From Roseiflexus sp. RS-1 (lineage in GTDB: Bacteria > Chloroflexota > Chloroflexia > Chloroflexales > Roseiflexaceae), in NCBI RefSeq assembly GCF_000016665.1, contig NC_009523.1:4525501-4589500 (forward strand): a stretch of DNA of 64,000 nt. The letters are read 5' to 3'. The notes under the pieces are model-generated. The model saw only the letters and a program-made list of their open reading frames with translations. It did no database searches and was not told where the DNA came from. The translations under genes and the position numbers were made by a program. Shown in pieces: positions 3,241-46,899 of this stretch. Numbering within the stretch: position 1 is the first letter of the stretch; the number at the start of each line of letters is the position of its first letter.

Positions 3241-3254
3241 TGTGATCGGTCACA
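3241..3254. promoter_or_regulatory. Candidate operator overlapping the LacI-gene promoter
   Basis: TGTGATCGGTCACA has TGTGA/TCACA arms around a 4-bp centre. It lies immediately downstream of the -10 box, where a bound repressor would block initiation. An operator for the adjacent LacI-family protein is the simplest reading; a CRP-like site would look similar. Confidence 0.45.
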
Positions 3255-3592: not shown

Positions 3593-3613
3593 GCATCGCC
3601 TCTCTTCGCCTGG

Positions 3614-5611: not shown

Positions 5612-5621
5612 AGATCTCCTG

Positions 5622-7532: not shown

Positions 7533-7572
7533 AGGCCCGATTATAGCATCTGAGCCGATGGGCGCAATGTGG

Positions 7573-7578
7573 TACAAT
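7573..7578 (+). promoter_or_regulatory. -10 box seven bases before the PBP start codon (possible leaderless promoter)
   Basis: TACAAT at 7573-7578 is followed by six bases and then ATG at 7585. If it is used, transcription would start at or next to the A of the ATG, giving a leaderless mRNA. No Shine-Dalgarno sequence precedes the ATG, and no clear -35 box is visible. Confidence 0.4.
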
Positions 7579-7584
7579 CGGGGT

Positions 7585-10392
7585 ATGGACAACATTCGAC
7601 GCAATCGGCGCAGTCGTTTACTGGCAGGCAGGCGACTGCCGGGACGTGCGCCGCTGACGCCGGGCATGTTGCGGCGCGGGCGCGCAGTCGAAACAGAGAT
7701 GCGTTTTGGCGGGATACTGGCGCGCCTTATGCTGGCATTCCTGGCGCTGGCAGGCGTGGTAGCGCTGGGTGTCGCCGGAACAGCCTACAGCGCCTACAGC
7801 GATCTGGCGGCATCGCTCAAGCCGCGACTGGCAGCGATCGAAAACCGTGAAAGTTTCGAGACGACGCGGTTGTACGACCGTAACGGTCAACTCCTCTACG
7901 AATTCTTCGGCGCCGGGAAGCGCACCCGCGTTCCGCTCGATCAGATATCGACCTACCTGATCAGCGCGACGGTTGCCATCGAAGATCGCACCTTTTTCGA
8001 GAATCGCGGCGTGGATTATCTGGGCATTGCACGCACGCTGTTCTCCAGTCTGCAAGCCGGTGAAGAGACCGGCGGCGCTTCGACGATTACGCAACAACTG
8101 ATCAAAAACGTTGTGCTCAGTGATGAAGAGCGACGGTACGAGAACAGGTATCAACGGAAACTGATCGAGATAATTCTGGCGCAGGAACTTTCGGAGCAGT
8201 ATTCGAAGAACGATATCCTCGAGTTGTACCTGAACGAAATCTACTACGGCAATCTGGCGTATGGCGTCGAAGCGGCTGCCAATGTCTATTTCGACATCCC
8301 GGCGAAAGATTTGAATCTGCCGCAGGCGGCATTGCTGGCAGGGTTGCCGCAGTTGCCCGGCGTCTACGATCCGTTCAACTATCTTGATGGCGGCGTACTC
8401 AAGGGGGTTCGCCTGGAGGATGGCTGGCTGAGTCCGGCGTATCGGCTGCCGACCGGAACGCCGCCGCCCAAGTGGCGGCAGGTTGCTGTGCTGCGGCAGA
8501 TGGTGGACGAAGGGATGATCACCGATCAGGTGGCGCGTCGTGCTGCAGCCGTCGATCTGCGATTCGCCAGCCAGGAAGTGCCGCTCAACGCCCCACACTT
8601 CGTTTTCTACGTTCGTCGTCTGCTGGAAGAGGAGTACGGACCGCAGTTCGCCAATATGGGTCTGTCGATCTACACGACGATTGACCTGGATCTGCAACGC
8701 ATGGCGCAGGAGAAGGCCGCCGAACGCATCCAGGAACTCGAAGCGCGCAATATCCACAATGCGGCGGTCGTTATTCTTCAACCGAACACGGGCCAGATCC
8801 TGGCGATGGTCGGCAGCATCGATTACAACAGGACGATCCCGACGAAAACGCCGGGTGAAACCGGCAATGTGCTCGATGGTCAGGTGAACGTTGCGGTGCG
8901 CGAGCGTCAGCCAGGATCGGCGCTGAAGCCGTTTACCTATCTGGCGGCGATGGAACGCGGTATGACCCCGGAAACCGTGATTTGGGACGTGCCGACGAAG
9001 TTTCCTTTGCTGGCCGGGATGAATGAGTGGTACGAGCCGCAGAACTACAATGGTCGCTGGAACGGACCGGTGCGCATGCGCGCGGCGCTTGCCAACTCGC
9101 TGAATATGCCAGCGGTCAAAGCGTTGAAGTTTGCCGGCATCGACCAGACGATTGGATTGTTGCGCCGCGCCGGTATCACCACCCTGCGGCGTGGCAGCGG
9201 CTTTTACGGGCTGGCGCTGACCCTGGGCGGCGGCGAAGTGACGCCGCTGGAATTAACCGCTGCCTACAATACGCTGGCGAGCGGTGGACGGTACTATCCA
9301 CCGGTCGCCATTCTCAAAGTCGTCGATGCAAACGGACGAACGCTCCAGGAGTTTCGCCCGACGATCCGCCCGCAGACGCTCAATCCGGATCATGTGGCGA
9401 TTATTACCGACATACTGAGTGACGACGCAGCGCGCGCGCCAGTCTGGGGATTGAACAGCAAATTGAAACTCTCGCGTCCGGCTGCGGTCAAGACCGGAAC
9501 GTCAAACGACTGGCGCGACGCCTGGGCGGTGGGCTACACGCCGTATGTGACCGTCGGCGTGTGGACCGGCAATAACAACAATGAACCGACGAAAAAAGTC
9601 GAAAGCCTGACCGGTGGCGGGGTCATCTGGCACAACATTATGGAGGAGTTGTTTGCCAATCCAAAGTTCCAGCGGTTGCTCGCCGAGCCGTATCCCGATG
9701 GACGGCTGCCGATCGACTTCACGAAACCTTCGTGGCTGGTGCGCCGACCGATCTGTCCGTTGCCTGGACCGTACAATGCCTACCGCGAAGAACTGTTCGC
9801 ACCAGACATGCTCGCATCGAACGCGATCCCTGTCTCTGATACGACTCAACTCTGCCAGAACATTTTTACCGAGGTTCCGGTGGTGCAGTTGAGCGACAGC
9901 CCGATCGAGGCGACCGCCCTGATCACTGACACTGCGATTGCCGGGCAATGGTACTGCACACCTGGGGAAGATCAGAGGATTGCGCCGGATCAGGTGACGA
10001 CGATCCTGGCGTGGAACGTGCCGCCGCCCGACCCGGACGAACAGATCGTCTATACCTGGGAAGGTATGAGCAACACGCTCGGCAACCGAACCGTTGCACC
10101 GATCGTCGCCGCAGCTATTCCTGCCTGCACGGCAGATATGCTGATCCCCTCCACACCGCCGACTCCCGGAGCGGTGCGGATGCCGGATCTGCGGCGCTTT
10201 GGCGAAAATCAGGCAAAAGAGCAACTGGCAGCGCTCGGTATTTTCAATGTCTACGTCGATTACCAGACGCGCGACCGCATTCCTGATGTGTACGATGAGT
10301 ATGCTCCCTATGCCGTGGTCAGCACACTGCCTGCGCCCGGTGAATGGATCGACCCGAATGCGACTGTCGTGCTGGGAGTGCGCGCGCCGTAA
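7585..10392 (+). CDS. Bifunctional penicillin-binding protein 1A with PASTA domain
   Basis: The 935-residue class A PBP makes peptidoglycan outside the membrane. A basic cytoplasmic tail and one membrane helix (about residues 45-70) precede the GT51 glycosyltransferase, with catalytic Glu in EDRTFF at 133 and the later GGASTITQQLIKN motif. The transpeptidase follows, with SALK at 445-448 (active-site Ser445), an SLN motif in ALANSLNMPAVK, and KTGT at 636-639. The last 75 residues (MPDLRRFGENQAKEQLAALG onward) form a single PASTA domain, which in related proteins binds wall fragments or beta-lactams. The start at 7585 was chosen because a -10 box sits seven bases upstream; upstream in-frame ATGs at 7558 and 7567 would place that box inside the gene. 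It abuts the convergent glucosaminidase gene with no gap. Confidence 0.95.
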   Translation: MDNIRRNRRSRLLAGRRLPGRAPLTPGMLRRGRAVETEMRFGGILARLMLAFLALAGVVALGVAGTAYSAYSDLAASLKPRLAAIENRESFETTRLYDRNGQLLYEFFGAGKRTRVPLDQISTYLISATVAIEDRTFFENRGVDYLGIARTLFSSLQAGEETGGASTITQQLIKNVVLSDEERRYENRYQRKLIEIILAQELSEQYSKNDILELYLNEIYYGNLAYGVEAAANVYFDIPAKDLNLPQAALLAGLPQLPGVYDPFNYLDGGVLKGVRLEDGWLSPAYRLPTGTPPPKWRQVAVLRQMVDEGMITDQVARRAAAVDLRFASQEVPLNAPHFVFYVRRLLEEEYGPQFANMGLSIYTTIDLDLQRMAQEKAAERIQELEARNIHNAAVVILQPNTGQILAMVGSIDYNRTIPTKTPGETGNVLDGQVNVAVRERQPGSALKPFTYLAAMERGMTPETVIWDVPTKFPLLAGMNEWYEPQNYNGRWNGPVRMRAALANSLNMPAVKALKFAGIDQTIGLLRRAGITTLRRGSGFYGLALTLGGGEVTPLELTAAYNTLASGGRYYPPVAILKVVDANGRTLQEFRPTIRPQTLNPDHVAIITDILSDDAARAPVWGLNSKLKLSRPAAVKTGTSNDWRDAWAVGYTPYVTVGVWTGNNNNEPTKKVESLTGGGVIWHNIMEELFANPKFQRLLAEPYPDGRLPIDFTKPSWLVRRPICPLPGPYNAYREELFAPDMLASNAIPVSDTTQLCQNIFTEVPVVQLSDSPIEATALITDTAIAGQWYCTPGEDQRIAPDQVTTILAWNVPPPDPDEQIVYTWEGMSNTLGNRTVAPIVAAAIPACTADMLIPSTPPTPGAVRMPDLRRFGENQAKEQLAALGIFNVYVDYQTRDRIPDVYDEYAPYAVVSTLPAPGEWIDPNATVVLGVRAP

Positions 10393-33106: not shown

Positions 33107-34270
33107 ATGCCACGGTTATTGATCGTCACAACAATTCCGGCAACGCTGTCGGCATTCCTGCTGCCATTTGCCCGGCATTACCGCGCGTGTGGGTGGCAGG
33201 TCGATGCGATGACGCGCAGCGAGCCGATCACTCCCGATATCCATTCAGCCTTCGATCATGTCTGGACGCTGCCCTGGTCGCGTCATCCGGTCAACCCGTC
33301 CAATCTCATCGGAACGCCGCAGCGCATCCGGCGGATTGTCGAACGCGAGCGGTATGACATCGTCCATGTGCATACGTCTGTTGCCGCGTTTGTGACACGC
33401 TACGCTCTCCGCGATCTCCGGCGGCGCCTTGGGGTGTGCGTGATCTACACCGCGCACGGGTTCAATTTCGACCAGAGTATGCCGTGGCACAAAAATCTGG
33501 CGTTTCTGACGCTGGAAAAACTGGCAAGCGCCTGGATGGATTATCAGGTGGTGATCAACCGCACCGATGAACTGGCAGCCATTCGCTACCGTCTCGCACC
33601 GCCGGATCGGGTCTGGTACATGCCGGGCATCGGCGTCGATCTGACCCACTATTGCCCCGACAGTATCCCCGACGCGGAGGCGGAAGCGGTGCGTCGGGAG
33701 ATAGGCGTCGCCCCCGATGAAGCGCTCGTGCTGATGATTGCCGAGTTTATTCCGCGTAAGCGCCACACCGATGTGTTGCGCGCGTTTGCGCAGCTTGGAC
33801 GACGCGACACTCACCTGGCGCTGGCGGGAACCGGACCGTTGCTGGAACCGATGCGTCGTCTGGCGGTCGACCTCGGCATTGCCGGACAGACCCATTTTCT
33901 GGGGTATCGCAGCGATGTGCCAGCGCTCCTCAGGGCTGCAACCGTGATGATCCTGCCATCGCGGCAGGAAGGGTTGCCGCGCAGCATTCTGGAGGCGATG
34001 GCAATGGGTGTGCCCGTGATCGGCTCAGACATCCGTGGTGTGCGCGACCTGCTGGCAGACGGCGCCGGCATGCTCGTGCCGGTTGGCGACATCGAAGCAC
34101 TGGCGCATGCCATGGCTCGCGTCATCGATGATCGCGCCGCGGCGCGCGCAATGGCGGAACGTGGTCTGGAACAGGCGCAGCGGTACGACCTGCAGCGTAT
34201 CATCGCGCTGCACGATCAGTTGTATGCGGCAGCGTTGAGCAAGCGACATGCATATGCGCCAATATCGTAG
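33107..34270 (+). CDS. Glycosyltransferase, GT4 type (second)
   Basis: The 387-residue enzyme starts with PRLLIVTTIPATLSAFLLPFARHYRACGW and has DIVHVHTSVAAFVTRYALR, YTAHGFNFDQSM, a donor domain beginning VLMIAEFIPRKRHTDVLRAF, and the E(x7)E motif in PSRQEGLPRSILEAMAMGVPVIGSDIRG. These match GT4 enzymes close to the CapM/WcaA-like capsule group. It lies 3 bp after the first glycosyltransferase gene, so translation is probably coupled, and 13 bp before the initiating transferase. Confidence 0.9.
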   Translation: MPRLLIVTTIPATLSAFLLPFARHYRACGWQVDAMTRSEPITPDIHSAFDHVWTLPWSRHPVNPSNLIGTPQRIRRIVERERYDIVHVHTSVAAFVTRYALRDLRRRLGVCVIYTAHGFNFDQSMPWHKNLAFLTLEKLASAWMDYQVVINRTDELAAIRYRLAPPDRVWYMPGIGVDLTHYCPDSIPDAEAEAVRREIGVAPDEALVLMIAEFIPRKRHTDVLRAFAQLGRRDTHLALAGTGPLLEPMRRLAVDLGIAGQTHFLGYRSDVPALLRAATVMILPSRQEGLPRSILEAMAMGVPVIGSDIRGVRDLLADGAGMLVPVGDIEALAHAMARVIDDRAAARAMAERGLEQAQRYDLQRIIALHDQLYAAALSKRHAYAPIS

Positions 34271-34283
34271 AGGAGGTCCGCCT

Positions 34284-34937
34284 GTGTACAGGAACTATGG
34301 AAAACGCGCCTTCGATCTTGTGCTGGTTGTGCCGGCGCTGATCGTGTTGGCGCCGGTGATGGCGATCCTTGCAGTGCTGATCCGGATTGCAATGGGATCG
34401 CCGGTTATCTTCACGCAGGAGCGCGCCGGGAAGGATGGGAAACCCTTCAGGCTCTACAAATTCCGCAGCATGACCAATGCGCGCGATGCACAGGGCAACC
34501 TGCTGCCCGACGAGCAACGTCTCACGCCGTTCGGCAAGTTTCTGCGCAGCACGAGCCTGGATGAACTGCCACAGTTATTCAATGTTCTGCGCGGCGACAT
34601 GAGCCTGGTGGGACCGCGCCCGTTGCTGGTGAAATACATCGACCGGTACACCCAGGATCAACGTCGTCGGCTGGAGGTGCTGCCGGGGATAACGTGCCAG
34701 GCAGTGCTCCACGGGCGGAGCAACCAGACGTGGGATCAAATCCTGGCGCACGATGTCTGGTATGTCGATCACATCAGTCTCTGGACTGACCTGCGCATTC
34801 TGATCGGAACCGTGCGCGTGGTGCTGACACGCGAAGGGGTCGAGCGCAGTGCGAACGGCCAGATTCCAGAGTTTCTCGGCGTACTCGCCCGGCAACCGGG
34901 CAGTGCGTCGGACGCGCCGCCAGCCGGAGGTTCGTAA
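34284..34937 (+). CDS. Initiating sugar-phosphate transferase (polyisoprenyl-phosphate hexose-1-phosphate transferase)
   Basis: The 217-residue protein has one N-terminal membrane segment ([24 protein letters not shown]) and the small PGT core: [26 protein letters not shown], then [25 protein letters not shown], with the conserved Asp-Glu pair. It is the monotopic, short form without the large N-terminal extension found in WcaJ. It transfers a sugar-phosphate to undecaprenyl phosphate and so starts repeat-unit assembly. GTG at 34284 has a perfect AGGAGGT seven bases away; the earlier ATG at 34248 lies within the preceding gene. Confidence 0.92.
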
Positions 34938-34939: not shown

Positions 34940-35836
34940 GTGGACGTTCGCTATCTCGAACAGGTGAAAGCGATGAAGGTAACGCTTATTCGCTCGGCTC
35001 GTGACGCGGAAGCAGTCTTCGATGACGTGGAGCGTCTGTTCCAGCGCGTCTTTGGCTATCGTCTGGACCGGAGGGCATGGGCGCGCTTTTACTTCGTCAA
35101 TCCGTATGGTGATGCGATTGTTGCGCTTGGCTGGAGCGGTGACCTTCTGGTCGGGCATCAGGCGCTCGTACCGCACGCAATTACCGATGGGCATGGACGG
35201 GAATACCGCTATTACCTGGCGATGAGTCTCATGCTGCACCCCGATCATCGTGGTTTCCCGGCATTTCATCGCCTGGTGGCGACGACGACAGCAGTGGCGC
35301 GACAGGAGGGTGCGCCGTTCATTCTGGGGTTTCCGAACGGCAATTCCTACGCGCTCTTCCAGCGCGCCTTCGGATGGAAAACGCTGCTGGAAACTGAACT
35401 GTACAACTGGCATTCTGCCACGCCAACCGGTCCGCCACGGAGCGTCACACCATTGCCGCACCTGCGCCTGACGGACGAGGCAGGTCCGCCCTGCGATGAA
35501 ACATACCGCCAGTGGCGCAGCCTGGAACTTCCCTATTATGCCGAACGGGTCAATGGGCGGCTTGCCGTCATCTACAAGATCGAGCGCGACGGAACGCTCA
35601 CCCTACTCGACGCATTGACCGATGACACGCATCACGCGGCGGATGATCTGGCGGCATTGCTGACATACACCGGCGCGCGCCAGGTGCGCATGACCGGCGT
35701 GCATGCCCGGATGATCGGTCTCGATCCGTCGATCATGGAGCGACACACCGATTACCGGTTGCGCATGTGCTATGCCCCGATCACGGCGGATCCGCCGCCG
35801 TTGCGTTTCAGTTTGCTGTTGAGCGATGTGTTCTGA
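34940..35836 (+). CDS. GNAT-family acyltransferase
   Basis: The 298-residue protein has an N-terminal GNAT-like core: DAEAVFDDVERLFQRVFGYRLD, then LAMSLMLHPDHRGFPAFHRLV, an LHP..RG acyl-CoA-binding loop. The segment PFILGFPNGNSYALFQRAFGWK is typical of GNAT proteins in polysaccharide clusters that acylate sugars. A second, weaker domain fills the C-terminal half. GTG at 34940 follows the transferase gene by 2 bp. It probably adds an acyl group to an amino sugar of the repeat unit; the donor is unknown and could be CoA or the ACP encoded downstream. Confidence 0.72.
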   Translation: MDVRYLEQVKAMKVTLIRSARDAEAVFDDVERLFQRVFGYRLDRRAWARFYFVNPYGDAIVALGWSGDLLVGHQALVPHAITDGHGREYRYYLAMSLMLHPDHRGFPAFHRLVATTTAVARQEGAPFILGFPNGNSYALFQRAFGWKTLLETELYNWHSATPTGPPRSVTPLPHLRLTDEAGPPCDETYRQWRSLELPYYAERVNGRLAVIYKIERDGTLTLLDALTDDTHHAADDLAALLTYTGARQVRMTGVHARMIGLDPSIMERHTDYRLRMCYAPITADPPPLRFSLLLSDVF

Positions 35837-35855
35837 CGAATGAAGGAGTAGATGC

Positions 35856-36521
35856 ATGAACGTCCTGATTGTGGCTGCGCATCCGGATGATGAAGTCCTG
35901 GGGTGCGGCGGAGTCACGGTGCGTCACGTTGAACGCGGCGACCGGGTCTATGTGGTGGTGGTCACCCGTGGTTTCCCTGAGATCTTTTCGCCGGAGATCG
36001 ACGAAGAGGATCGCCAGCATGCGCGTGAAGCGCACGAGATACTCGGCGGCGCGGGGATCTTCTTTCTCGACTTTCCGGCGCCGCGTCTCGATACAGTGCC
36101 GGGGCACGAACTGGCGGACGCGCTCCGTGAGGTGATCTTCTCGGTCAACGCCGACGTGGTCTATACCCCGTTCGGCGGCGATCTGCACACTGATCACAAA
36201 GCCACCTACCTGGCGACCCTGGTTGCATCGCGCCCGGTCAACCACTGTCCGGTCCGGCGGCTCCTCTGTTACGAAACCCTCTCGGAGACCGATTGGGCGT
36301 CGCCGCTGGACGATGGCGCCTTCAAGCCAACCGTTTTTGTGGACATCAGTAACGTTCTGGAACGCAAACTTCAGGCGCTTGCCTGTTTTCGCAACGAACT
36401 GAAACAGCCGCCCCATCCCCGTTCGTTGCGCGCAATCGAGGCGCTGGCGCGAGTCCGCGGCAGCACGGCAGGTCTGATGGCGGCAGAAGCATTCATGCTG
36501 GTTCGTGAAATCATCGATTGA
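35856..36521 (+). CDS. PIG-L family N-acetyl-sugar deacetylase
   Basis: The 221-residue zinc enzyme carries AHPDDE at residues 8-13 (ligands His9 and Asp12, base Asp11) and the third ligand in DLHTDHK near residue 112. Family members remove N-acetyl from GlcNAc-type substrates, including lipid-linked and nucleotide-linked ones. Here it should expose an amine on a sugar, which the neighbouring acyltransferases or ligase could then modify. GAAGGAG precedes the start. The reading frame and motifs are intact. Confidence 0.88.
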   Translation: MNVLIVAAHPDDEVLGCGGVTVRHVERGDRVYVVVVTRGFPEIFSPEIDEEDRQHAREAHEILGGAGIFFLDFPAPRLDTVPGHELADALREVIFSVNADVVYTPFGGDLHTDHKATYLATLVASRPVNHCPVRRLLCYETLSETDWASPLDDGAFKPTVFVDISNVLERKLQALACFRNELKQPPHPRSLRAIEALARVRGSTAGLMAAEAFMLVREIID

Positions 36522-36536
36522 ACAAAGGAGCACGGT

Positions 36537-36860
36537 ATGCAGGTCACAGCGCTGGACATTCCCGCTCAGATTCGCACCTACATCACGCACAACCTGTTGT
36601 TCGGCGACGAAAGTCTGATCTACAGCGATGAGGACTCGTTTCTCGAACGAGGGATTGTGGACTCGCTCGGCGTGATCGAACTGGTGACCTTCCTGGAAGC
36701 ACAGTTTGGCATCAGCGTCGCCGATCACGAACTGATACCCGAAAACTTCGACTCGGTGAAGAACCTTGCGGAGTATGTGGCGCGCAAACTTGAGACGGCA
36801 ACGCTTGCAGAAGCGCCACGCTCGTCATTTGATCTGGGGGAAGCCTATGCTGGTCCATGA
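36537..36860 (+). CDS. Acyl carrier protein
   Basis: The 107-residue protein has the ACP fold with the phosphopantetheine site in GIVDSLGVIELVTFLE (Ser43) and a low-charge tail after residue 90. It is longer than fatty-acid ACP and resembles peptidyl-carrier-like or EPS-cluster ACPs. It probably receives an acyl or aminoacyl group from the AMP ligase encoded next. The stop overlaps the ligase start by 14 bp, consistent with coupled translation. AAGGAG precedes its start. Confidence 0.88.
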   Translation: MQVTALDIPAQIRTYITHNLLFGDESLIYSDEDSFLERGIVDSLGVIELVTFLEAQFGISVADHELIPENFDSVKNLAEYVARKLETATLAEAPRSSFDLGEAYAGP

Positions 36861-38406
36861 CTTTCTGATCAACAGCGCCGCGCGATTGCCGGATAAGGTT
36901 GCGCTGGTGTGCGATGGACACCGGATGACCTACCGCGACCTCGATCTGATGACCAATCGCCTGGCGCGCGCGCTCGTGGAGCATGGCGTCGGGCGCGGTG
37001 ATCGGGTGGCGATCTTCATGCCCAACTCGGTCGAAGCGGTGGTCGGGATTTTTGCTGCGCTCAAGGCGGGCGGCGTCTTCGTGGTCATCAACCATACGAC
37101 CAAACAGGACAAACTAACCGCCATTCTGAACAACTGTCGCGCCGCTGCGCTGATTGCCGATGCGCAGATCAGAGACGTACATTTGTCGGCGCTGCTCCAC
37201 GATGCGCCATCGCTCAGGGTTGGCGTGCTGTGCAATCAAGGCGCTGCTGCCCGTATCACCCATCCACGTTTCATCGATTTCGACGCTGTGCAGGCACAGT
37301 ACGACGCTGCGCCGCTCCCGCGCGTCACTATCGATCTCGACCTGGCGTGCCTGATCTACACTTCGGGCAGCACCGGGGAACCGAAGGGGGTCATGAGCGA
37401 TCACAGCAATGTCGTCTTTGCCAGCGAGTCGATCATCACCTATGTGCAGAATGTCGAAGATGATGTCGTCATCAACATGCTGCCGCTTTCCTTCGATTAT
37501 GGTCTCTACCAGCTGCTCATGACCTTCCGTTTCGGCGGCAGACTGGTGCTCGAACGCTCGTTTGCATATCCTGCGGCGATCCTCAGGCGCATCGAGGAAG
37601 AGCGTGTCACCGGTTTTCCCGGCGTTCCGACGATCTATGCCCTTCTCCTGCAGATGGATCTGAGCCGCTACGATCTGTCGAGCATCCGGTATCTCACGAA
37701 CACTGCTGCCGCGTTGCCCCCCAGCCACGTGCTGGAACTGCGTCGAACCTTTCACTGGGCGCGCCTCTACTCGATGTACGGTCTGACCGAAACCAAACGC
37801 ACGCTCTACCTGCCGCCCGAAGAAGTGGAGCGTCGCCCCGGTTCGGTTGGCATTGCCATTCCGGGTACCGAGGTCTGGATCGAAGATGAACAGGGGAACC
37901 GCCTCGGACCGGGTGAGGTTGGCGAACTGGTGGTGCGTGGACGGCACGTGATGCGCGGCTACTGGGAAGCGCCAGAAGCCACGGCACAGCGTTTCCGCCC
38001 CGGTCCGCTGCCGGGTGAGCGTGTGTGCTACACCGGCGACCTGTTTCGCATGGATGCCGATGGGTTTCTGTACTTCGTCGGGCGTAAGGACGACATCATC
38101 AAAAGTCGTGGTGAAAAAGTCGCACCCAAAGAAGTCGAAAACGTCATTTACGAACTGCCGGGCGTGGTGGCGGTCGCAGTGGTGGGTGTCCCCGACCCGA
38201 TCCTGGGGCAGGCAATTAAGGCATTCGTTGTCACAAAGAATGCCGATCTGACAGAGATGCAGGTTCTGGCGCACTGCCGTTCGCGACTGGAAGATTTCAT
38301 GGTGCCGCGGTACGTCGAGTTCCGCGATGAACTGCCGGTCAACACGTCAGGAAAAATTGCCCGGCGAGAATTGACACAGGCGTTGAACGCTGACCGTTCA
38401 ACCTGA
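36847..38406 (+). CDS. AMP-forming acyl ligase (acyl-CoA synthetase family)
   Basis: The 519-residue ANL-superfamily enzyme has the P-loop YTSGSTGEPKGV at 171-182, an ATP-binding SMYGLTETKRTLYL motif, YTGDLFRMDADGFLYFVGRKDDIIKS, and the catalytic lysine in NTSGKIARREL near residue 503. It activates a carboxylate as acyl-AMP and should load the adjacent ACP. It resembles acyl-ACP ligases found in exosortase-associated polysaccharide clusters. ATG 36847 overlaps the ACP gene by 14 bp. The carboxylate could be a fatty acid, an amino acid or a uronic acid. Confidence 0.88.
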   Translation: MLVHDFLINSAARLPDKVALVCDGHRMTYRDLDLMTNRLARALVEHGVGRGDRVAIFMPNSVEAVVGIFAALKAGGVFVVINHTTKQDKLTAILNNCRAAALIADAQIRDVHLSALLHDAPSLRVGVLCNQGAAARITHPRFIDFDAVQAQYDAAPLPRVTIDLDLACLIYTSGSTGEPKGVMSDHSNVVFASESIITYVQNVEDDVVINMLPLSFDYGLYQLLMTFRFGGRLVLERSFAYPAAILRRIEEERVTGFPGVPTIYALLLQMDLSRYDLSSIRYLTNTAAALPPSHVLELRRTFHWARLYSMYGLTETKRTLYLPPEEVERRPGSVGIAIPGTEVWIEDEQGNRLGPGEVGELVVRGRHVMRGYWEAPEATAQRFRPGPLPGERVCYTGDLFRMDADGFLYFVGRKDDIIKSRGEKVAPKEVENVIYELPGVVAVAVVGVPDPILGQAIKAFVVTKNADLTEMQVLAHCRSRLEDFMVPRYVEFRDELPVNTSGKIARRELTQALNADRST

Positions 38407-38419
38407 CAGGAGTGTATCC

Positions 38420-40414
38420 ATGTGCGGGATTGTGGGTATCGTCAATATCCAGGGTGATCAACCGATCCACGAAGAGACGCTCCGCCGGATGCTGGCAATG
38501 ATCCGGCACCGCGGACCCGATCAGTTTGGCATCTATCTCGACGATCAGGCTGGTCTGGGCAATGCGCGTTTGAGCATTATCGATCTGCACGGCGGTCAAC
38601 AACCGATTGCCAATGAAGACGAAACGCTCTGGATCGTCTTCAACGGTGAGATTTTCAACTATGTGGAACTGCGCTCCGACCTGGAAGCGCGTGGACATCG
38701 CTTCACCACCAGTACCGACACCGAGGTGATCCTGCACCTGTACGAAGATCATGGACCGGCGTGTCTCTCCCTGCTCAACGGTCAATTCGCCATCGCTCTC
38801 TGGGATGCGCGTGAACAGACACTCTTCCTGGCGCGTGATCGGGTTGGCATTCTGCCGTTGTTCTACACTATCGTCGATGGCGCACTGATCTTCGGTTCCG
38901 AAATAAAAGCAATCCTGGCGGATCCGCGCGTGCCGCGAGCGATCGATCCGGTGGCGCTGGAGCAGATTTTCACCTTCTGGAGCACCCTCTCGCCACGAAC
39001 GATCTTTCGCAACATTGTCGATCTTCCGCCCGGACACTATCTGATCGCGCGCCAGGGACAGATCGACATCCGACCCTACTGGCGTCTCGATTTCGGTCTG
39101 CCGGTGCGTGAGCGCAGTGAAGATGAATATATCGAGGAATTGCGCGAACTGCTGATCGATGCAACGCGGATCCGCCTGCGGGCTGATGTGCCGGTTGGCG
39201 CGTACCTGAGCGGCGGACTCGACTCCTCGACGGTGGCGGCAATCGTGCGCAGCGCCGCCGGAGTTCAGCTCGACACCTTTTCGATTGCGTTCAGCGATCC
39301 CGAATTCGACGAGAGTTCTTTTCAGCGCCAGATGGCGCAATTCCTCGGAACCGACCATCAGGTGGCGTTTGTCACCCATGCCGACATCGGGCGCGTCTTC
39401 CCGGAGGTGATCTGGCATACTGAAACGCCAATCCTGCGCACCTCACCCGCGCCGCTCTTCCTCCTCTCGCAGCTGGTGCGCGACCGGAACTATCGTGTGG
39501 TGCTGACCGGTGAAGGCGCCGACGAATTCCTGGCAGGGTACGACATTTTCAAGGAAGCGAAAGTGCGACGCTTCTGGGCGCGTCAACCGACATCGCGCCT
39601 GCGACCGCTCCTGTTTCGCCGGCTCTATCCATGGATCGCCGGGTTTGCCAGCAGCAACACAGCCTATCTGTCGGCATTTTTTAGCGAAGGATTGATGGAT
39701 ACGCAGGCGCCGGACTATTCCCATCGTCCACGCTGGCGCACCACCAGTCGGATCCGACGATTCTTCAGCGACGAGGTGCGTCAGGCTGCCGATGCACTGG
39801 CGCAGCCGGAGGATCGCGCACCGTTCTACCCGGAAGCGTTCAGCACGTGGGATCCATTGCAGCAGGCGCAGTACCTGGAAATCACCACCTTTCTCTCGCA
39901 GTACCTGCTCGCAGCCCAGGGCGATCGGATGCTCATGGCGCACGCCGTCGAGGGGCGCTTCCCCTTCCTCGATCATCGGGTGATCGAGTTTGCCAGCCGA
40001 CTGCCGTCACGTCTGAAACTGCGCGGTCTGACCGAAAAGTACATTCTGCGCCAGGTCAGCCGTCGCTGGCTCCCGGACGCGATCTGGCAGCGCGCGAAGC
40101 AACCGTATCGCGCGCCGATCCACCGGAGTTTCTTCAACGATGCGCGTCCGGGCTATGTCGATCATCTGCTCGCGCCGGAATACATCCAGGCGACGGGTCT
40201 GTTCCGCCCCATGGCTGTTGCGCATTTGAGGAAGAAAGCGCTCTCCGGGGTGCGTCTGAGCGAAACCGAGGATATGGCGCTGGTGGGGATTCTCTCGACA
40301 CACCTGCTGGTTGAGCAGTTCATTCGTGACATGCGTATGCCGCAGCCGCTCTCGGATGCGGATGATGTCAGGGTGTGCATACGAAGCGGCGTGGCAGCAG
40401 GAGGAGACCGATGA
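38420..40414 (+). CDS. asnB-like: Asparagine-synthase-type glutamine amidotransferase
   Basis: The 664-residue protein has the N-terminal nucleophile Cys2 (MCGIVGIVN) and glutaminase domain, followed by the PP-loop S264-S270 (SGGLDSS) of the synthetase domain, and RFPFLDHRVIEFASRLP near the end. It is typical of AsnB-like enzymes that amidate carboxyl groups of non-Asp substrates in polysaccharide and secondary-metabolite clusters. An amide on a uronic acid or on an ACP-bound acyl group is the likely product. AGGAG precedes the start, and its stop overlaps the NadE-like start by 4 bp. Free asparagine biosynthesis cannot be excluded. Confidence 0.87.
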   Translation: MCGIVGIVNIQGDQPIHEETLRRMLAMIRHRGPDQFGIYLDDQAGLGNARLSIIDLHGGQQPIANEDETLWIVFNGEIFNYVELRSDLEARGHRFTTSTDTEVILHLYEDHGPACLSLLNGQFAIALWDAREQTLFLARDRVGILPLFYTIVDGALIFGSEIKAILADPRVPRAIDPVALEQIFTFWSTLSPRTIFRNIVDLPPGHYLIARQGQIDIRPYWRLDFGLPVRERSEDEYIEELRELLIDATRIRLRADVPVGAYLSGGLDSSTVAAIVRSAAGVQLDTFSIAFSDPEFDESSFQRQMAQFLGTDHQVAFVTHADIGRVFPEVIWHTETPILRTSPAPLFLLSQLVRDRNYRVVLTGEGADEFLAGYDIFKEAKVRRFWARQPTSRLRPLLFRRLYPWIAGFASSNTAYLSAFFSEGLMDTQAPDYSHRPRWRTTSRIRRFFSDEVRQAADALAQPEDRAPFYPEAFSTWDPLQQAQYLEITTFLSQYLLAAQGDRMLMAHAVEGRFPFLDHRVIEFASRLPSRLKLRGLTEKYILRQVSRRWLPDAIWQRAKQPYRAPIHRSFFNDARPGYVDHLLAPEYIQATGLFRPMAVAHLRKKALSGVRLSETEDMALVGILSTHLLVEQFIRDMRMPQPLSDADDVRVCIRSGVAAGGDR

Positions 40415-41448
40415 CATTCGGGACACATGTGTTACAGATCGATGCCGCTGCCGAGACGGAGCGCATCATTGCCTGGTTGCAGCGCCACGTCATCAGAACC
40501 TTCCACCGTCAGGGGGTTGCGCTGGGGATCAGCGGCGGCATCGACTCATCGGTGGCGCTGGCGCTCTGTGTGCGCGCCTTCGGTCCGCAGCGCGTGGTTG
40601 CGTTGATGATGCCGGAGCGCGACTCCGACCCGGAAACGCTGCATCTCTCGGAGATGGTTGCGCGGCACTATGGCGTCGAGCCGATCCTGGAGGATATTAC
40701 GCCGGTGCTCGAAGGATTTGGATGCTACCGTCGTCGTGATGAGGCGGTGCGTCGCATCTTCCCGGAGTACAACGCTGAACGCGGCTACAAAATGCGCATT
40801 GTGCTGCCGCAGAATCTGCTCGATGCCGATACGCTGAACGTCTTCTCGCTCGAAATTGTCACGCCCGATGGCGAAGTCAAAAGCAAACGCTTACCGCCGC
40901 GCGAGTATGCGCAGATTGTCGCCGCCTCGAATTTCAAGCAACGCACCCGCATGGCGATGCTGTACTACCACGCCGAGGTGCGCAATTACGCAGTCGTCGG
41001 CACGCCGAACAAGAATGAGCACGACCAGGGTTTCTTCGTCAAGTACGGTGACGGCGGCGCCGATCTGCGTCCAATTGTGCATCTGTACAAAACACAGGTC
41101 TATCAACTGGCGCGCTATCTTGAGGTGCCGGAGGTCATCCAGCGTCGCCCGCCAACGTCGGATACCTACAGCGCACCGACCACGCAGCAGGAATTCTTCT
41201 TTCGCCTTCCCTTTGAGACGATGGATCTGCTCTGGTATGCGCAGGAACATAACGTATCGCCCGACGATGCGGCGCAGGCATTGGGGTTGACGCCGGTGCA
41301 GGTGCAGCGCGCCTTCAACGATTTTGCCCGTAAGCAACGCACGACCGCATATCTGCGCATGCCTGTGCTGGAACTGCGCAGCGCGGATCAGAACGGCGAG
41401 CCGCTGAAATCTGTGGAGTTTCGCAGGAACGAAGGAGCACACACGTGA
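40411..41448 (+). CDS. NadE-like PP-loop amide synthetase
   Basis: The 345-residue protein has the PP-loop SGGIDSS at 41-47, NKNEHDQGFFVKYGDGGADLRPI, and RRPPTSDTYSAP, all matching the NAD synthetase fold. No glutaminase domain is present, so ammonia would be used directly or supplied by a partner. True NadE enzymes make NAD+ from deamido-NAD; a housekeeping role is possible, but its position between an AsnB-type enzyme and a FemAB-like gene, with 4-bp overlaps at both ends, suggests a dedicated amidation of a sugar or acyl substrate. ATG 40411 follows GAGGAG. Confidence 0.83.
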   Translation: MTFGTHVLQIDAAAETERIIAWLQRHVIRTFHRQGVALGISGGIDSSVALALCVRAFGPQRVVALMMPERDSDPETLHLSEMVARHYGVEPILEDITPVLEGFGCYRRRDEAVRRIFPEYNAERGYKMRIVLPQNLLDADTLNVFSLEIVTPDGEVKSKRLPPREYAQIVAASNFKQRTRMAMLYYHAEVRNYAVVGTPNKNEHDQGFFVKYGDGGADLRPIVHLYKTQVYQLARYLEVPEVIQRRPPTSDTYSAPTTQQEFFFRLPFETMDLLWYAQEHNVSPDDAAQALGLTPVQVQRAFNDFARKQRTTAYLRMPVLELRSADQNGEPLKSVEFRRNEGAHT

Positions 41449-42536
41449 TACAGGAGCAGTTGTTTACCATCGAGGATCGGGATGCCTGGGAGGAGGCGAT
41501 GCCGACGCACATCAGTGTATTTGGCAGTATCGGCTACGCCTGCATTGTGCAGCGTCACATCGGCTATCCTGCCCGCTTGTTTGTTGTGTCGTCCGGCACA
41601 GGGCGGATCGTTTACCCTTTCTTTCTGCGTCCAGTGGCGAATCTGCCATTTGCGCAACAGTATGCGCCGTTCTGGGATACCCTCACCCCTGAGTATACCG
41701 GTCCGATGGCATGGGGTGAGGTGACGCCCCTGCTCAGGTATTTCTTCGACGAACGCTGGAACCGGTTCTGTGAAGAACAGGGGGTTGTGGCGGAATTTGC
41801 CCACCTGCATCCATCGGAGCGCGCCGCCGACCTGCTGGACTCCGCGCACGTGCAGTTCAATCGCGAGATCGTCGTTGTCGATCTGACGCTTCCGGAGGAG
41901 AATCTGTGGCGCCATTCCTTCTCGCTCTCCTGCCGCAAGAACATTCAGCGCGCACACCGCGATCAGGTGCGCGTTGTCGAAGGGCGAACTGATGCCGATG
42001 TGCGCGAGTTCCACCGCATCTATACGATGACGATGGAGCGTCGTCAGGCGCACAAACGCTACTTTTTCTCGCTCGACTATTTTCTGGCGTTTCGCGACGA
42101 ATTGCCCGATAACACGCTGTTTCTGTTCGCCGTGTATCGTGATCGGGCGATTGCGGCGCACCTGTATCTCTATGATGATGAAGAGATGCACGATTTTCTC
42201 GGCGGCATGGAAGAGGAGCATAAGCGACTGCGTCCGGCGAACGCCGTCATTTATGCTGCTATTCAGTGGGGGCGACGCCGTGGGAAGCGTCGGCTCATTC
42301 TGGGGGGAGGGTATCAGCAGAACGATGGGATCTATCAGTTCAAGGCAAGTTTCTCTCCGCTGCGCGCACGTTTCTCAACGTATCGACGGGTGCGCCATCC
42401 GACGCTGTATGCCGATCTCTGCCAGGCATGGACGGAGTACTACGGATGCGCTCTGCCGCAGGACGCAACGTATTTCCCGGCGTATCGCATGATCCCGCCG
42501 CAGGATGCAGGATTGGCGCGCGAGGTTGGCGGTTAG
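41445..42536 (+). CDS. FemAB/BioF2-like acyl- or aminoacyltransferase
   Basis: The 363-residue protein resembles FemAB-type double-GNAT proteins found in polysaccharide clusters: FSLSCRKNIQRAHRDQVRVVEG, then EFHRIYTMTMERRQAHKRYFFS, HDFLGGMEEEHKRLRPANAVIYAAIQWGRRR and GGGYQQNDGIYQFKASFSP. The last segment is a signature of this group. FemAB enzymes add amino acids from aminoacyl-tRNA to wall precursors; the cluster types may acylate the polymer with another donor. Its GTG overlaps the preceding stop codon (GTGA). A predicted role in decorating the repeat unit is inference. Confidence 0.75.
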   Translation: MIQEQLFTIEDRDAWEEAMPTHISVFGSIGYACIVQRHIGYPARLFVVSSGTGRIVYPFFLRPVANLPFAQQYAPFWDTLTPEYTGPMAWGEVTPLLRYFFDERWNRFCEEQGVVAEFAHLHPSERAADLLDSAHVQFNREIVVVDLTLPEENLWRHSFSLSCRKNIQRAHRDQVRVVEGRTDADVREFHRIYTMTMERRQAHKRYFFSLDYFLAFRDELPDNTLFLFAVYRDRAIAAHLYLYDDEEMHDFLGGMEEEHKRLRPANAVIYAAIQWGRRRGKRRLILGGGYQQNDGIYQFKASFSPLRARFSTYRRVRHPTLYADLCQAWTEYYGCALPQDATYFPAYRMIPPQDAGLAREVGG

Positions 42537-42622: not shown

Positions 42623-43834
42623 ATGGACAGAGTGCCCATGTCATCGCCGGATGTGACCGATGCTGAGCGGGAAGTTGTCATGAAAGCGTTGCACACGCCG
42701 GTTTTGAGCATCGGACCGTATGTTCAACAGTTCGAGCAACGTCTGTCGGCGTTTGTTGGCGCTCGTTACGGGGTTGCAGTCAACTCTGGCACGAGCGGTC
42801 TGCATCTGAGCGTCATCGCTGCTGGCGTTACCGAATATGATCTGGTCGTCACGACGCCGTTTTCGTTTATCGCATCGGCAAACTGCATTCTGTACGAACG
42901 CGGCATCCCGATCTTCGTCGATGTCGATCCGCTGACGGGGAATATCGATCCGGAACAGGTGCATGCTGCGATAAGCGATCTCTCGCGCGGCGGGATGGCG
43001 GCGCGGCGCTGGTTGCCGCCCGCTCTGCGCAACGGTCGTTATGGTCGGGTGAAAGCCATTCTTGCAGTGCATGCGTTTGGTCAACCAGCGGATATGACGC
43101 CGATCGTCGCACTTGCGCGGCGGCGGAATCTGGTGGTCATCGAAGATGCCTGCGAGGCGCTTGGTTCGGAGTATCGCGGTCATCCGGCGGGGACGTTGGG
43201 CGATCTGGCTGTCTTTGCCTTCTACCCGAACAAACAGATCACCACCGGCGAAGGGGGCATGATTGTCACCAACAACGAAGAATGGGCTGTGTTGCTGCGC
43301 AGTCTGCGCAACCAGGGTCGTGATGTGTTCGACGCCTGGTTGAACCATACCCGGCTTGGCTTCAACTATCGGCTCGACGAGTTGAGCGCCGCGCTGGGGT
43401 GTGTGCAAATGCAGCGCATCCACGAGTTGCTGGCAAAACGCGCGCGAGTGGCGGCATGGTACAACGAACGGCTCGCCGATCTCGAACTGGTCGAACGTCC
43501 GCTGATCAGCGATACGACCACGGTGATGAGCTGGTTCGTCTATGTAGTGCGGATCAAGCCGCCCGCCCGACGCGATGGAGTGATGCGCCTGCTGGCAGCC
43601 AGCGGTATTCCGAGTCGTCCGTACTTTACACCGATCCATCTGCAACCGTTCTACCGCAAACGGTTCGGTTTCCGCCGGGGCGATTTCCCGGTGACCGAAC
43701 GCCTGGGGGATACGTCGCTGGCGCTGCCGTTTTCCAGCGTGATGACCGAATCGCAGGTCGATATGGTGTGTGAACAGTTGCGCCGCAGTCTGGTGCAATC
43801 GATCCAGTCGGAAGATACGGTAGGCGTGGCGTGA
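42623..43834 (+). CDS. DegT/DnrJ/EryC1-type sugar aminotransferase
   Basis: The 403-residue PLP enzyme has the Schiff-base lysine K204 in FYPNKQITTGEGGMI, VAVNSGTSGLHLSVIAAG, and VIEDACEALGSEYRG, where Asp binds the PLP ring. It converts a keto-sugar nucleotide to an amino sugar, probably the product of the dehydratase encoded further downstream. ATG 42623 is preferred because AGGGAG lies nearby; the longer ORF starts inside the preceding gene. An 86-bp gap upstream could hold an internal promoter. Confidence 0.9.
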   Translation: MDRVPMSSPDVTDAEREVVMKALHTPVLSIGPYVQQFEQRLSAFVGARYGVAVNSGTSGLHLSVIAAGVTEYDLVVTTPFSFIASANCILYERGIPIFVDVDPLTGNIDPEQVHAAISDLSRGGMAARRWLPPALRNGRYGRVKAILAVHAFGQPADMTPIVALARRRNLVVIEDACEALGSEYRGHPAGTLGDLAVFAFYPNKQITTGEGGMIVTNNEEWAVLLRSLRNQGRDVFDAWLNHTRLGFNYRLDELSAALGCVQMQRIHELLAKRARVAAWYNERLADLELVERPLISDTTTVMSWFVYVVRIKPPARRDGVMRLLAASGIPSRPYFTPIHLQPFYRKRFGFRRGDFPVTERLGDTSLALPFSSVMTESQVDMVCEQLRRSLVQSIQSEDTVGVA

Positions 43835-44502: not shown

Positions 44503-44545
44503 GCATTCCGCTGCGCAACGGCGCGGAGTGGAACAGGAGGAGGAT

Positions 44546-46516
44546 ATGTCACGATCATTGCCTGCCGGACATCTCTGCACAATCGATGTGTTGATGTTGA
44601 CTATTGCGGCGTTCGCCAGTTATGCACTACGTCTCGAGCGTCTCGATCTGGGTGAGCACTGGCGGTCGTTCGTGCTGTTTGCCGGAGCAGCGCCGGTTGT
44701 TGTGCTGATGCTCTTTGGGATGACACGGGTCTATGCCCAGTACTGGCGCTATGCATCGTTCCACGAGTTCAGTCTGCTGGCGTGGGCGCTTGTGTGCGCC
44801 GGGATCGTTCTGGAAGGCATGGTGCTGATCGGGCGCGCCCTGTTTCCAGCGATACCGGTTGTCCCGTTGTCGATCCCGCCGATCTTCGTCTTATCCGCGC
44901 TGACACTGACCGCATTGCCGCGCCTGATGATGCACGCGCGATTTCAACCTTCCCCCCGGCGCTGGCATCGACAGAGCGGTAATCGTGCGCTGATCATGGG
45001 CGCCGGTGAAGCCGGCGCAATGATTGTGCAGAGTATGCGTCTTGCCCGGCAGAATAATGTTATTGTGGGCTTTGTCGATGATAACCCGCACAAGCGAGGC
45101 GTGCGCATCAATGGCGCGCCGGTGCTCGGTGATCGTCACGATATTCCGCGTCTGGCGGCAGAGTATCAGATCAACGAGGTGATCATCGCCATGCCGAGTG
45201 CGCCGGGCAAAACCATCCGTGAGATTGTTGCGATCTGTGAACGTGCCGGTGTGCGCGCTCGCATCATCCCCGGAATAGCCGAACTGGTCGATGGTCGGTT
45301 CAGCGTCAATCATATCCGCGATGTGCAGATCGAAGACCTGCTCCGCCGCGCGCCGATACAAACCGATATGCAGGCGGTAGGGCGCCTGATCCGTGGGCGG
45401 CGCGTGCTGGTCACCGGCGGGGGCGGATCGATCGGGAGCGAAATCTGTCGCCACGTGCTGCGGTACGAACCGTCTGACCTGATCATTCTGGGGCACGGTG
45501 AAAACAGTGTATTCGCCATCCACAACGAGTTGTACCGGTGGTTGAACACGCCACGCGGAGAGTCGGATAGCGTAGACGGTGATGGACAATGCCGGTCATA
45601 CCGCACGCCAACGCTGCATACGGTGATTGCCGATATTCGCTTCTCCGAGCGCATTCACGCGGTGTTCGAGCGGTATCGTCCGGAGATCGTGTTCCATGCC
45701 GCAGCGCACAAGCACGTTCCGCTGATGGAAGCCAACCCCGTCGAAGCGGTGACCAACAATGTGCTTGGCACGCGCAATCTGCTCGATGCCGCAATTGTCA
45801 CCGGCGTTGAACGCTTCGTCATGATCTCGACCGATAAGGCGGTCAACCCCACCAGCATCATGGGCAGCAGCAAGCGTGCCGCCGAACTGCTGGTGCATCA
45901 CGCAGCGAAGGTCAGCGGTCGGGCGTTCATGGCAGTGCGTTTCGGCAACGTCCTGGGCAGTCGCGGCAGTGTTGTGTGGACGTTCAAGCAGCAGATTGCC
46001 GCCGGCGGACCGGTGACAGTAACCCATCCAGAGATGCGCCGTTATTTCATGACCATCCCCGAAGCGGTGCAACTGGTGTTGCAGGCGGCGGCGCTTGGTC
46101 GGGGCGGCGAGGTGTTTACGCTGGACATGGGTGAGCCGGTCAAGATTCTCGATCTGGCGCGCGATATGATCGAACTCTCCGGGTTGCAGGTAGGGCGCGA
46201 CATCGATATCGCCTTTGTAGGGTTGCGCCCAGGCGAGAAACTCTTTGAGGAACTGTTCCTGCCCGGCGAGCAGTACGACCGCACAAGCCACGAGAAGATT
46301 TTCATTGCCAGGAATGCCAGCCGGCTTGTCCCCGCCGATGTGCTCGCGCTGATCGCCGATCTTGAAGAGGCGGCTCTGTCGGACGATACGTCACGCACCG
46401 TCCGGTTGCTCCGTCTCATCGTTCAGCGCAGTCAATCGACGCCACACGAGGATGTGCACGGCGATCATACGCTCGAGCCTGCCAGCCTGCGCGCGCTCGC
46501 AGTGGGTGGGTCGTAG
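44546..46516 (+). CDS. FlaA1/CapD-type membrane nucleoside-diphosphate-sugar 4,6-dehydratase
   Basis: The 656-residue protein has four N-terminal membrane helices (residues about 10-130), then a first nucleotide-binding domain (NRALIMGAGEAGAMIVQSM near 150) and the SDR catalytic domain with VLVTGGGGSIGSEI at about 287-300. The active site reads ISTDKAVNPTSIMGSSKRAAELLVH, giving the Met/Lys variant seen in WbpM-type 4,6-dehydratases. It makes a 4-keto-6-deoxy sugar, matching the upstream aminotransferase. AGGAGGA precedes ATG 44546. It is followed by a 383-bp gap before the final gene. Confidence 0.9.
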   Translation: MSRSLPAGHLCTIDVLMLTIAAFASYALRLERLDLGEHWRSFVLFAGAAPVVVLMLFGMTRVYAQYWRYASFHEFSLLAWALVCAGIVLEGMVLIGRALFPAIPVVPLSIPPIFVLSALTLTALPRLMMHARFQPSPRRWHRQSGNRALIMGAGEAGAMIVQSMRLARQNNVIVGFVDDNPHKRGVRINGAPVLGDRHDIPRLAAEYQINEVIIAMPSAPGKTIREIVAICERAGVRARIIPGIAELVDGRFSVNHIRDVQIEDLLRRAPIQTDMQAVGRLIRGRRVLVTGGGGSIGSEICRHVLRYEPSDLIILGHGENSVFAIHNELYRWLNTPRGESDSVDGDGQCRSYRTPTLHTVIADIRFSERIHAVFERYRPEIVFHAAAHKHVPLMEANPVEAVTNNVLGTRNLLDAAIVTGVERFVMISTDKAVNPTSIMGSSKRAAELLVHHAAKVSGRAFMAVRFGNVLGSRGSVVWTFKQQIAAGGPVTVTHPEMRRYFMTIPEAVQLVLQAAALGRGGEVFTLDMGEPVKILDLARDMIELSGLQVGRDIDIAFVGLRPGEKLFEELFLPGEQYDRTSHEKIFIARNASRLVPADVLALIADLEEAALSDDTSRTVRLLRLIVQRSQSTPHEDVHGDHTLEPASLRALAVGGS

Positions 46517-46707
46517 CGGGTCGAACGCCCACGGCGCACGATGATCCTTCCTGCGGGTGACGCATGCTTCTGGATGGCGCAGTGTTCCGCGCTGTGGAGA
46601 GCGTGCGTCGCTTGCTGCGCTCCAGTACGCTGGCATGGAGTCGCTTCCTGTGCTGCCGCAGTTCAGGGCATCAGATCGCACCCAACGCCGGTGCGGAATA
46701 TCTCGTC

Positions 46708-46807
46708 AGTGTCCACATTTCTCCTGGGAGCGAGGGTATCTTGCCCTCGTAGACGCGACGAGGGCGGGACGCCCTCGCTCCCGGGCGTGTGTGTTCCTCC
46801 AGGTGTG
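46708..46807. repeat. Interspersed hairpin repeat, copy 2, in the gap before the last EPS gene
   Basis: It shares the TTTCTCCTGGGAGCGAGGG core and a hairpin with copy 1 at 22531-22635. The 383-bp gap 46517-46899 otherwise holds no gene that I can support. It may carry a terminator or a promoter for the epimerase gene, but neither is clear. Confidence 0.65.
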
Positions 46808-46899
46808 AACAGTTACACCGTCTCTGGAGTTGGACAAAACCGGTGAGTCGCGGTACGCTAGAGAACCTGGAGACGGCGCAGGCATGGGGAGGCAGATTC

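Follow-up and report, generated by a model that had tools for sequence, protein, structure and literature searches.

Four genes within a polysaccharide cluster of Roseiflexus sp. RS-1, encoding an ACP, an AMP-forming ligase, an AsnB-type amidotransferase and a NadE-like PP-loop enzyme, form a core that recurs in at least six phyla. The complete set, on a single strand and within ~4.7–6.4 kb, was found in 33 of the 36 loci examined, from Chloroflexota, Acidobacteriota, Pseudomonadota, Bacteroidota, Ignavibacteriota, and Planctomycetota. Because these genes remain together in so many loci across these phyla, their adjacency is not due to chance. At least six gene orders were observed among the loci examined. 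The core is both wider and smaller than the unit proposed by an earlier sequence-only reading, and it is not peculiar to Chloroflexota. The conserved unit is the four-gene core; the seven-gene block around it is specific to Roseiflexus, with PIG-L, this particular GNAT, and the directly adjoining FemAB belonging only to that version. In the literature collection searched, no description of the combination was found.

The window, i.e., the whole stretch of DNA analyzed, is 64,000 nucleotides long. The block occupies positions 34973–42536 and was confirmed in coordinates, strand, and gene identities; the number of genes is seven rather than the eight originally counted. These genes and the neighbors most relevant to function are as follows.

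34248..34937, + strand: sugar-phosphate transferase initiating the repeat unit of the polymer (PF02397, 213 bits)
34973..35836, + strand: GNAT-family acyltransferase (Acetyltransf_9, PF13527; a weak match, 28 bits vs. a cut-off of 25, E 2e-6)
35856..36521, + strand: PIG-L deacetylase (PF02585, 87 bits; AHPDDE and HTDH motifs)
36537..36860, + strand: ACP, core gene 1 (PP-binding, PF00550; DSL motif)
36847..38406, + strand: AMP-forming ligase, core gene 2 (best model TIGR03098, 484 bits vs. a cut-off of 592)
38420..40414, + strand: AsnB-type glutamine-dependent amidotransferase, core gene 3 (TIGR01536, above cut-off)
40411..41448, + strand: NadE-like PP-loop enzyme, core gene 4 (SGGIDSS; NF002048, 509 bits vs. 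a cut-off of 313)
41445..42536, + strand: FemAB-like acyl/aminoacyl transferase (PF02388, 58 bits; TIGR03019, 27 bits vs. a cut-off of 260)
42623..43834, + strand: DegT/DnrJ/EryC1 aminotransferase, C4-type, PseC/LegC-like (PF01041; below cut-off with both PseC, 301 bits, and LegC, 293 bits)
44528..46516, + strand: membrane-type NDP-sugar 4,6-dehydratase (PF02719, PF13727; best NCBIfam model PseB, below cut-off)

Genes in the block are separated by gaps of 19, 15, and 13 bp or overlap by 14, 4, and 4 bp, and an 86-bp gap follows between FemAB and the DegT aminotransferase. The surrounding cluster also includes Wzz-like and HlyD-type genes and two GT4 glycosyltransferases in addition to the sugar-phosphate transferase, NDP-sugar dehydratase, and DegT genes listed, neighbors that bear out the original placement of a functional module within a polysaccharide cluster.

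Distances between core proteins suggest that they travel together. Across the core loci, pairwise distances were correlated for AsnB and NadE (r = 0.86) and for the ligase and NadE (0.59), and none of 2,000 permutations gave a value as high. When 72,556 plasmids were searched with each core protein as a separate query, the four record sets were nearly identical: 116 records for NadE (Sinorhizobium 76, Azospirillum 12, Ensifer 9, Shinella 8, Mesorhizobium 7), 120 each for AsnB and the ACP (per-group counts 76, 12, 9, 8, and 8 for both), and 126 for the ligase (74, 12, 9, 8, and 8). The four genes are thinly scattered within the groups surveyed, with the core present in 13 of 400 Chloroflexota genomes and 2 of 289 genomes from the class of locus L018, a sparse distribution as expected for an accessory pathway. 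One Roseiflexus genome (G330) had no NadE match, but its contigs end inside the module, so it is unusable as an empty site.

The cassette NadE is a paralogue of NAD synthetase and not the housekeeping enzyme. The sequence-only reading had allowed that it might be the sole copy in the genome; a second NadE is present (a PF02540 ORF of 696 aa at C1:3330274, 78 bits), as is an additional one in five of the six other genomes checked, which rules out the housekeeping assignment. Its fold is that of NadE (Z 27.5, rmsd 2.9 over 248 residues to 2e18), with the same PP-loop chemistry as NadE (2e18, 1ee1) and the Francisella NMN synthetase (3fiu), and in alignments the PP-loop and catalytic core of NAD synthetases are conserved. 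It departs from these enzymes in a ~56-residue insertion and an altered P2 loop, whose Q(T/S)DE motif is absent from the cassette members examined, and in lying beside ACP, ligase, and AsnB genes. The fold, the conserved core, and the NCBIfam name NAD(+) synthase would fit a bona fide auxiliary NAD (or NMN) synthetase carried along in the operon, and the Francisella enzyme is a known case of a substrate-shifted NadE paralogue. We regard this as very unlikely, however, given the further NadE copies, the insertion and missing motif, and a subfamily that tracks the cassette AsnB as closely as noted above. Three other cassette NadEs score 428, 510, and 516 bits against the same subfamily model, NF002048 (PRK00876). 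The cassette enzyme is not the housekeeping one, a separate NAD synthetase being present, so NF002048 seems to consist mostly of cassette enzymes.

The conserved catalytic core of the NadE-like protein leaves room for NaAD amidation by the cassette enzyme. The AsnB protein has its N-terminal Cys and intact glutaminase and synthetase domains, and its best solved relatives are the hydroxyamidotransferase 7ylz and E. coli AsnB (1ct9).

Among the EPS genes of XrtA/PEP-CTERM systems is a comparable set of three, for a ligase, an AsnB-type protein, and a FemAB-type protein (TIGR03098, TIGR03108, TIGR03019), and XrtA-associated models are among the best or detectable matches of the three Roseiflexus proteins. 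The window could on that basis hold such a cluster after loss of its exosortase. In contrast to XrtA loci, all three proteins fall below the model cut-offs (besides the ligase and FemAB scores listed above, 471 vs. 817 bits for the amidotransferase), and the locus has an extra NadE paralogue, which XrtA clusters are not, to our knowledge, known to carry. A profile search of the whole genome for exosortase (PF09721) gave no match at E 0.001, so that none was detected in the genome any more than in the window. On the model cut-offs and this search together we reject an exosortase system, and a lost-exosortase origin is the most improbable of the explanations considered here.

One of the closest known counterparts is a cassette on S. 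meliloti pSymB, where homologues of AsnB (52% identity), ACP (38%), ligase (55%), and NadE (50%) lie in one block; unlike in Roseiflexus, no PIG-L, GNAT, or FemAB gene adjoins them. Three pSymB proteins match the ACP, and only the one in the cassette adjoins a related AMP ligase. Based on position and gene content, the cassette appears to contain SMb20650 (AMP ligase) and SMb20651 (ACP). SMb20650 is reported to acylate holo-SMb20651 in E. coli and to be unable to stand in for FadD when cells grow on oleate (PMC7232532). Loading of the ACP by the ligase thus has published support from the S. meliloti homologue, and by analogy the Roseiflexus pair may act in the same way.

The best solved relatives of the Roseiflexus ligase are NRPS amino-acid adenylation domains. 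It has K317-R318 and an A4-type Asp217 that lines up with the A4 Asp in linear gramicidin synthase; in NRPS A-domain-like adenylating enzymes this residue binds the alpha-amino group. A motif survey of cassette ligases found the A4 Asp kept in type I and Gly or Cys in types II and III, and because of this replacement amino-acid loading is probably not general among cassettes. The nearest NCBIfam models to the ACP are the ornithine-lipid OlsHI ACP and AmcB of cispentacin synthesis, both below cut-off, and it scores 25 bits against the DltC model (cut-off 68). In D-alanylation, DltA and DltC likewise pair a stand-alone adenylating enzyme with the stand-alone carrier it loads for surface-polymer decoration; the cassette differs by adding two amidating PP-loop enzymes. 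Neither DltB (MBOAT) nor DltD was detected among the Pfam-scanned genes of 23216–47865, where three ORFs (26307, 29013, 30346) had no Pfam match.

The ligase could instead serve an ordinary fatty-acyl or hydroxyacyl decoration, placing a medium or long fatty acid on the ACP for O- or N-acylation, with AsnB and NadE acting elsewhere, for example in converting a uronic acid to a uronamide. In O-antigens, uronamides are products of AsnB-like enzymes of the WbpS type; annotation places the ligase family under long-chain acyl-CoA ligase or TIGR03098; and at locus L019 a broken ligase coexists with the other core genes. We consider this quite unlikely, as steps independent of one another would not keep the four genes so tightly together, the ligase has amino-acid adenylation domains as its best solved relatives, and SMb20650 reportedly does not substitute for FadD on oleate.

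Genomic surroundings of the core are of two kinds. The core lies within glycan context in the window and at loci L013, L018, L026, and L053; in Roseiflexus, Bacteroidota, L013, L018, and L053 it sits among glycosyltransferases, sugar-phosphate transferases, NDP-sugar enzymes, and FemAB. It lies outside glycan clusters in Geothrix isolates (L012) and on several rhizobial plasmids, and such stand-alone cores often occur with a HemK/PrmC-like NPPY methyltransferase and an uncharacterized ~370-aa protein. Since some cores are thus found away from polysaccharide clusters, decorating a polymer may be just one use among several. The stand-alone loci, together with the NRPS-like ligase and the AmcB score of the ACP, could also mean that the cassette makes a free small molecule (a secreted metabolite, signal, or compatible solute) that is released from the ACP, its location in polysaccharide clusters being secondary. 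The glycan and FemAB genes around the core at the loci named above, and the lack of any thioesterase or exporter constantly associated with them, argue against this, and we judge it unlikely.

Accessory genes vary by lineage. Proteins beside the core include acyltransferases of differing folds (FemAB, GNAT, hexapeptide, Acyl_transf_3, and MBOAT), with no one family constant across core loci; other FemAB proteins lie near it in L018, L025, L026, and L053. The Roseiflexus GNAT is present in L007–L009. No relation was detected between this GNAT and accessory proteins of other lineages, homology to the ~370-aa protein of rhizobial loci or to the L028 GNAT included, and its predicted structure is of low confidence (mean pLDDT 60). 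PIG-L is absent from the non-Roseiflexus loci, and deacetylation, once proposed as the opening step, is not a general one. The DegT aminotransferase, with the 4,6-dehydratase as partner, is a possible source of the amine acceptor, and an amine made by the NDP-sugar 4,6-dehydratase and C4-type DegT is at least as likely as one exposed by PIG-L.

Our preferred, still tentative reading, to which we give just short of an even chance, is that the core makes an ACP-bound acyl group with one or two ATP-derived amide-type nitrogens, which a local acyltransferase moves to an acceptor. The AMP ligase would adenylate a small acid (perhaps an amino acid for this ligase type) and load it onto the ACP; AsnB would place a glutamine nitrogen on a free carboxylate to give an amide; the NadE-like enzyme would adenylate either another carboxylate or the amide just formed, then add ammonia, yielding a diamide or amidine; and a lineage-specific acyltransferase would transfer the finished group. 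In the window, FemAB and/or GNAT would be the transferase, acting in a surface polymer, and the acceptor would probably be a 4-amino sugar, through its free amine (dehydratase at 44528 and DegT at 42623), or, alternatively, an amine uncovered by PIG-L. What this analysis contributes directly is the co-inheritance of the four genes, the active-site motifs, and the NadE paralogy; the identity of the acid, the sequence in which amidation proceeds and its targets, the product, and the acceptor are inferred. A bolder version is rather unlikely: that the two PP-loop enzymes, working one after the other, convert an acid held on the ACP into an acyl group bearing an amidine or diamide, that this pathway has spread horizontally and serves across phyla as a portable means of decorating glycans and other acceptors, and that NF002048 is a misnamed amidine/amide synthetase. 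We know of no described counterpart to carrier-bound amidation with two PP-loop enzymes.

The compact four-gene pathway is common to phototrophic Chloroflexota, Geothrix, Bacteroidota, and the standard symbiosis model S. meliloti, a genetically tractable organism. Working out the pathway would put a name to a new chemical group, probably amide-containing, correct the annotation of an NAD synthetase subfamily that is at present filed under NAD metabolism, and assign a purpose to a rhizobial ACP. The four-gene core provides a simple genomic signature by which the group can be located elsewhere.

The seven same-strand genes GNAT, PIG-L, ACP, AMP ligase, AsnB, NadE-like, and FemAB lie in that order in the window (C1:4525501–4589500 of a single-contig genome of 5,801,598 bp). 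The sequence-only reading had described a tight block of eight genes; the intergenic spacing agrees, whereas the gene number is seven. The cassette discussed below is the four-gene core running from ACP to NadE-like.

Core and flanking features of the seven-gene block (window positions)
34248–34937, sugar-phosphate transferase, left flank
36537–41448, + strand, core: ACP, AMP ligase, AsnB, NadE-like
42623–43834, DegT aminotransferase, right flank

Active-site motifs read from the sequence include DSL in the ACP, an N-terminal Cys and SGGLDSS in AsnB, SGGIDSS in the NadE-like protein, and AHPDDE and HTDH in PIG-L. In the wider cluster, Pfam identifies a Wzz-domain protein, an HlyD-type protein, two GT4 glycosyltransferases, a membrane NDP-sugar 4,6-dehydratase, and an NDP-sugar epimerase/dehydratase. 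A Pfam scan matched no family for the products of 29013 and 30346, whose position and size would fit a flippase and a polymerase. A repeat of ~110 bp (about 46705–46816) has dozens of dispersed copies, 79–91% identical, in the related Roseiflexus genome G330.

Searching with the NadE-like protein returned 24 loci from Chloroflexota, Acidobacteriota, Bacteroidota, Ignavibacteriota, Planctomycetota, and one alphaproteobacterial MAG, with the closest cassette relatives in Roseiflexus MAGs. The four core genes adjoin one another in nearly all 24, while PIG-L, the 287-aa GNAT, and a FemAB gene immediately adjoining NadE are confined to Roseiflexus among them. When loci from plasmids and other Chloroflexota were added to the NadE-search loci, 33 of 36 had all four genes complete on one strand within ~4.7–6.4 kb; the exceptions are L020 (contig edge), L053 (divergent ligase), and L055 (partial, distant AsnB). 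The ligase of L019 is split over several frames. Gene order varies (ACP-ligase-AsnB-NadE, ACP-AsnB-ligase-NadE, AsnB-ACP-ligase-NadE, NadE-AsnB-ligase-ACP, ligase-AsnB-NadE-ACP, and others), and pairwise identities of AsnB and NadE are correlated across 31 loci (r = 0.86, reached by 0 of 2,000 permutations). The lack of a NadE match in G330, a 95%-identical Roseiflexus, is no evidence of absence: its contigs C153 and C148 end inside the module, and the equivalent of about 36960–42363 is missing from the assembly.

Plasmid searches, whose E-value limits were not equal between queries, matched nearly identical sets of records (NadE 116, AsnB 120, ACP 120, ligase 126), a co-occurrence test independent of any one query. 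By genus, these included Sinorhizobium (74–76 over the four queries), Azospirillum (12), Ensifer (9), Shinella (8), and Mesorhizobium (7–8). Streptomyces plasmids gave ACP matches and no NadE match, and one linear plasmid carries a cassette-like AsnB (39%; NZ_CP108509.1, 907329–909263), possibly marking a NadE-less variant. The cassette NadE occurs in 13 of 400 sampled Chloroflexota genomes and 2 of 289 from the class of L018, a sparse distribution as expected of an accessory pathway moving between lineages. L018 itself (1–9325), on a Rhodospirillales-binned contig, is nearer to Roseiflexus than most Chloroflexota copies are (NadE 78%, ligase 74%, AsnB 68%), reflecting either inter-phylum transfer or mis-binning.

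The cassette NadE is a paralogue. The window's genome encodes a second PF02540 protein (696-aa frame), and in five of the six other cassette genomes checked a full-length NadE likewise lies apart from the cassette (frames of 550–709 aa). The structural model (pLDDT 84) has the NadE fold and aligns with the solved NadE 2e18 (Z 27.5, rmsd 2.9 over 248 residues), with ~56 additional residues between two conserved blocks (query 103–173, chain 90–104). Where three solved NadEs have Q(T/S)DE, aligned cassette members have (T/S)Q(E/Q)EF or EFY. This protein and three other cassette NadEs score well above the cut-off of NF002048; that model's name, "NAD(+) synthase," is thus probably wrong or incomplete for cassette proteins. 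A published survey examined the genes around NAD synthetases in eight hundred genomes, in search of glutaminase partners; its available part does not mention the cassette (PMC3376133).

The nearest curated model to the ligase, TIGR03098 (XrtA-associated ligases), scores under its cut-off; among solved structures, the ligase most resembles adenylation domains of NRPSs, in which the A4 Asp aligns with Asp217. In enzymes that activate amino acids, this Asp holds the amino group. It is present in most cassettes and replaced by Gly or Cys in others, so motifs do not fix the substrate; an Arg three residues past the Glu of the TE motif is kept in nearly all ligases. For the window type, we favor an amino acid or some other polar acid as substrate. 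In a Chloroflexota locus (L048, 4390–7716), two ligases of different type flank the ACP and may load two acids.

On S. meliloti pSymB, the cassette ACP adjoins the AMP ligase, and this is the one of three ACP-like matches with a detectable relative of the window ligase beside it. The pair probably corresponds to SMb20651 and SMb20650. According to PMC7232532, the pSymB genes for SMb20650 and the ACP SMb20651 are cotranscribed, and SMb20650 acylates this ACP in E. coli but does not substitute for FadD on oleate.

In the pathway that we favor, the ligase would load the ACP, as reported for a homologue; family chemistry suggests amidation by both AsnB and the NadE-like enzyme, and a local acyltransferase would transfer the group. 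Transferases vary by lineage (FemAB and GNAT in the window, hexapeptide proteins in Geothrix and Bacteroidota, others elsewhere). The neighboring dehydratase and C4-type aminotransferase, which is PseC/LegC-like with model scores under cut-off, could supply a 4-amino sugar as a natural N-acyl acceptor, with PIG-L a second potential amine source.

The main doubt about polymer decoration is genomic context. Geothrix isolates and several rhizobial plasmids carry the cassette outside glycan clusters, often near a HemK/PrmC-like methyltransferase, and a free metabolite as its product therefore stays a serious rival. Upstream of one Geothrix cassette (L012, 566–2442) are a peptidyl-arginine-deiminase-family gene and a carbon-nitrogen hydrolase, families that recur in five Geothrix loci; the former family includes agmatine deiminases, and a polyamine link is possible. 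Two further kinds of protein lie beside cassettes.

Proteins beside cassettes (locus positions)
L012 11019–11939; L026 4566–5381 and 11140–12495; L023 11104–11943: openings like FLHHSTGE or FGHQSVGN
L034 13030–14142; L031 7095–8204; L061 5105–6211: ~370 aa, conserved

The first kind, from Acidobacteriota, Bacteroidota, and Thermoflexus, has no informative Pfam family and looks SGNH-like by eye. The second (38–54% identity), from rhizobia, had no Pfam match in the two members scanned.

Each part of the cassette is of a known kind, and work in S. meliloti has dealt with one pair; our search, thin on subscription journals, found no published description of the four-gene unit. We rate the cassette as a putative carrier-protein-based acyl donor pathway; amidine synthesis on a carrier protein is a bolder, less likely possibility.
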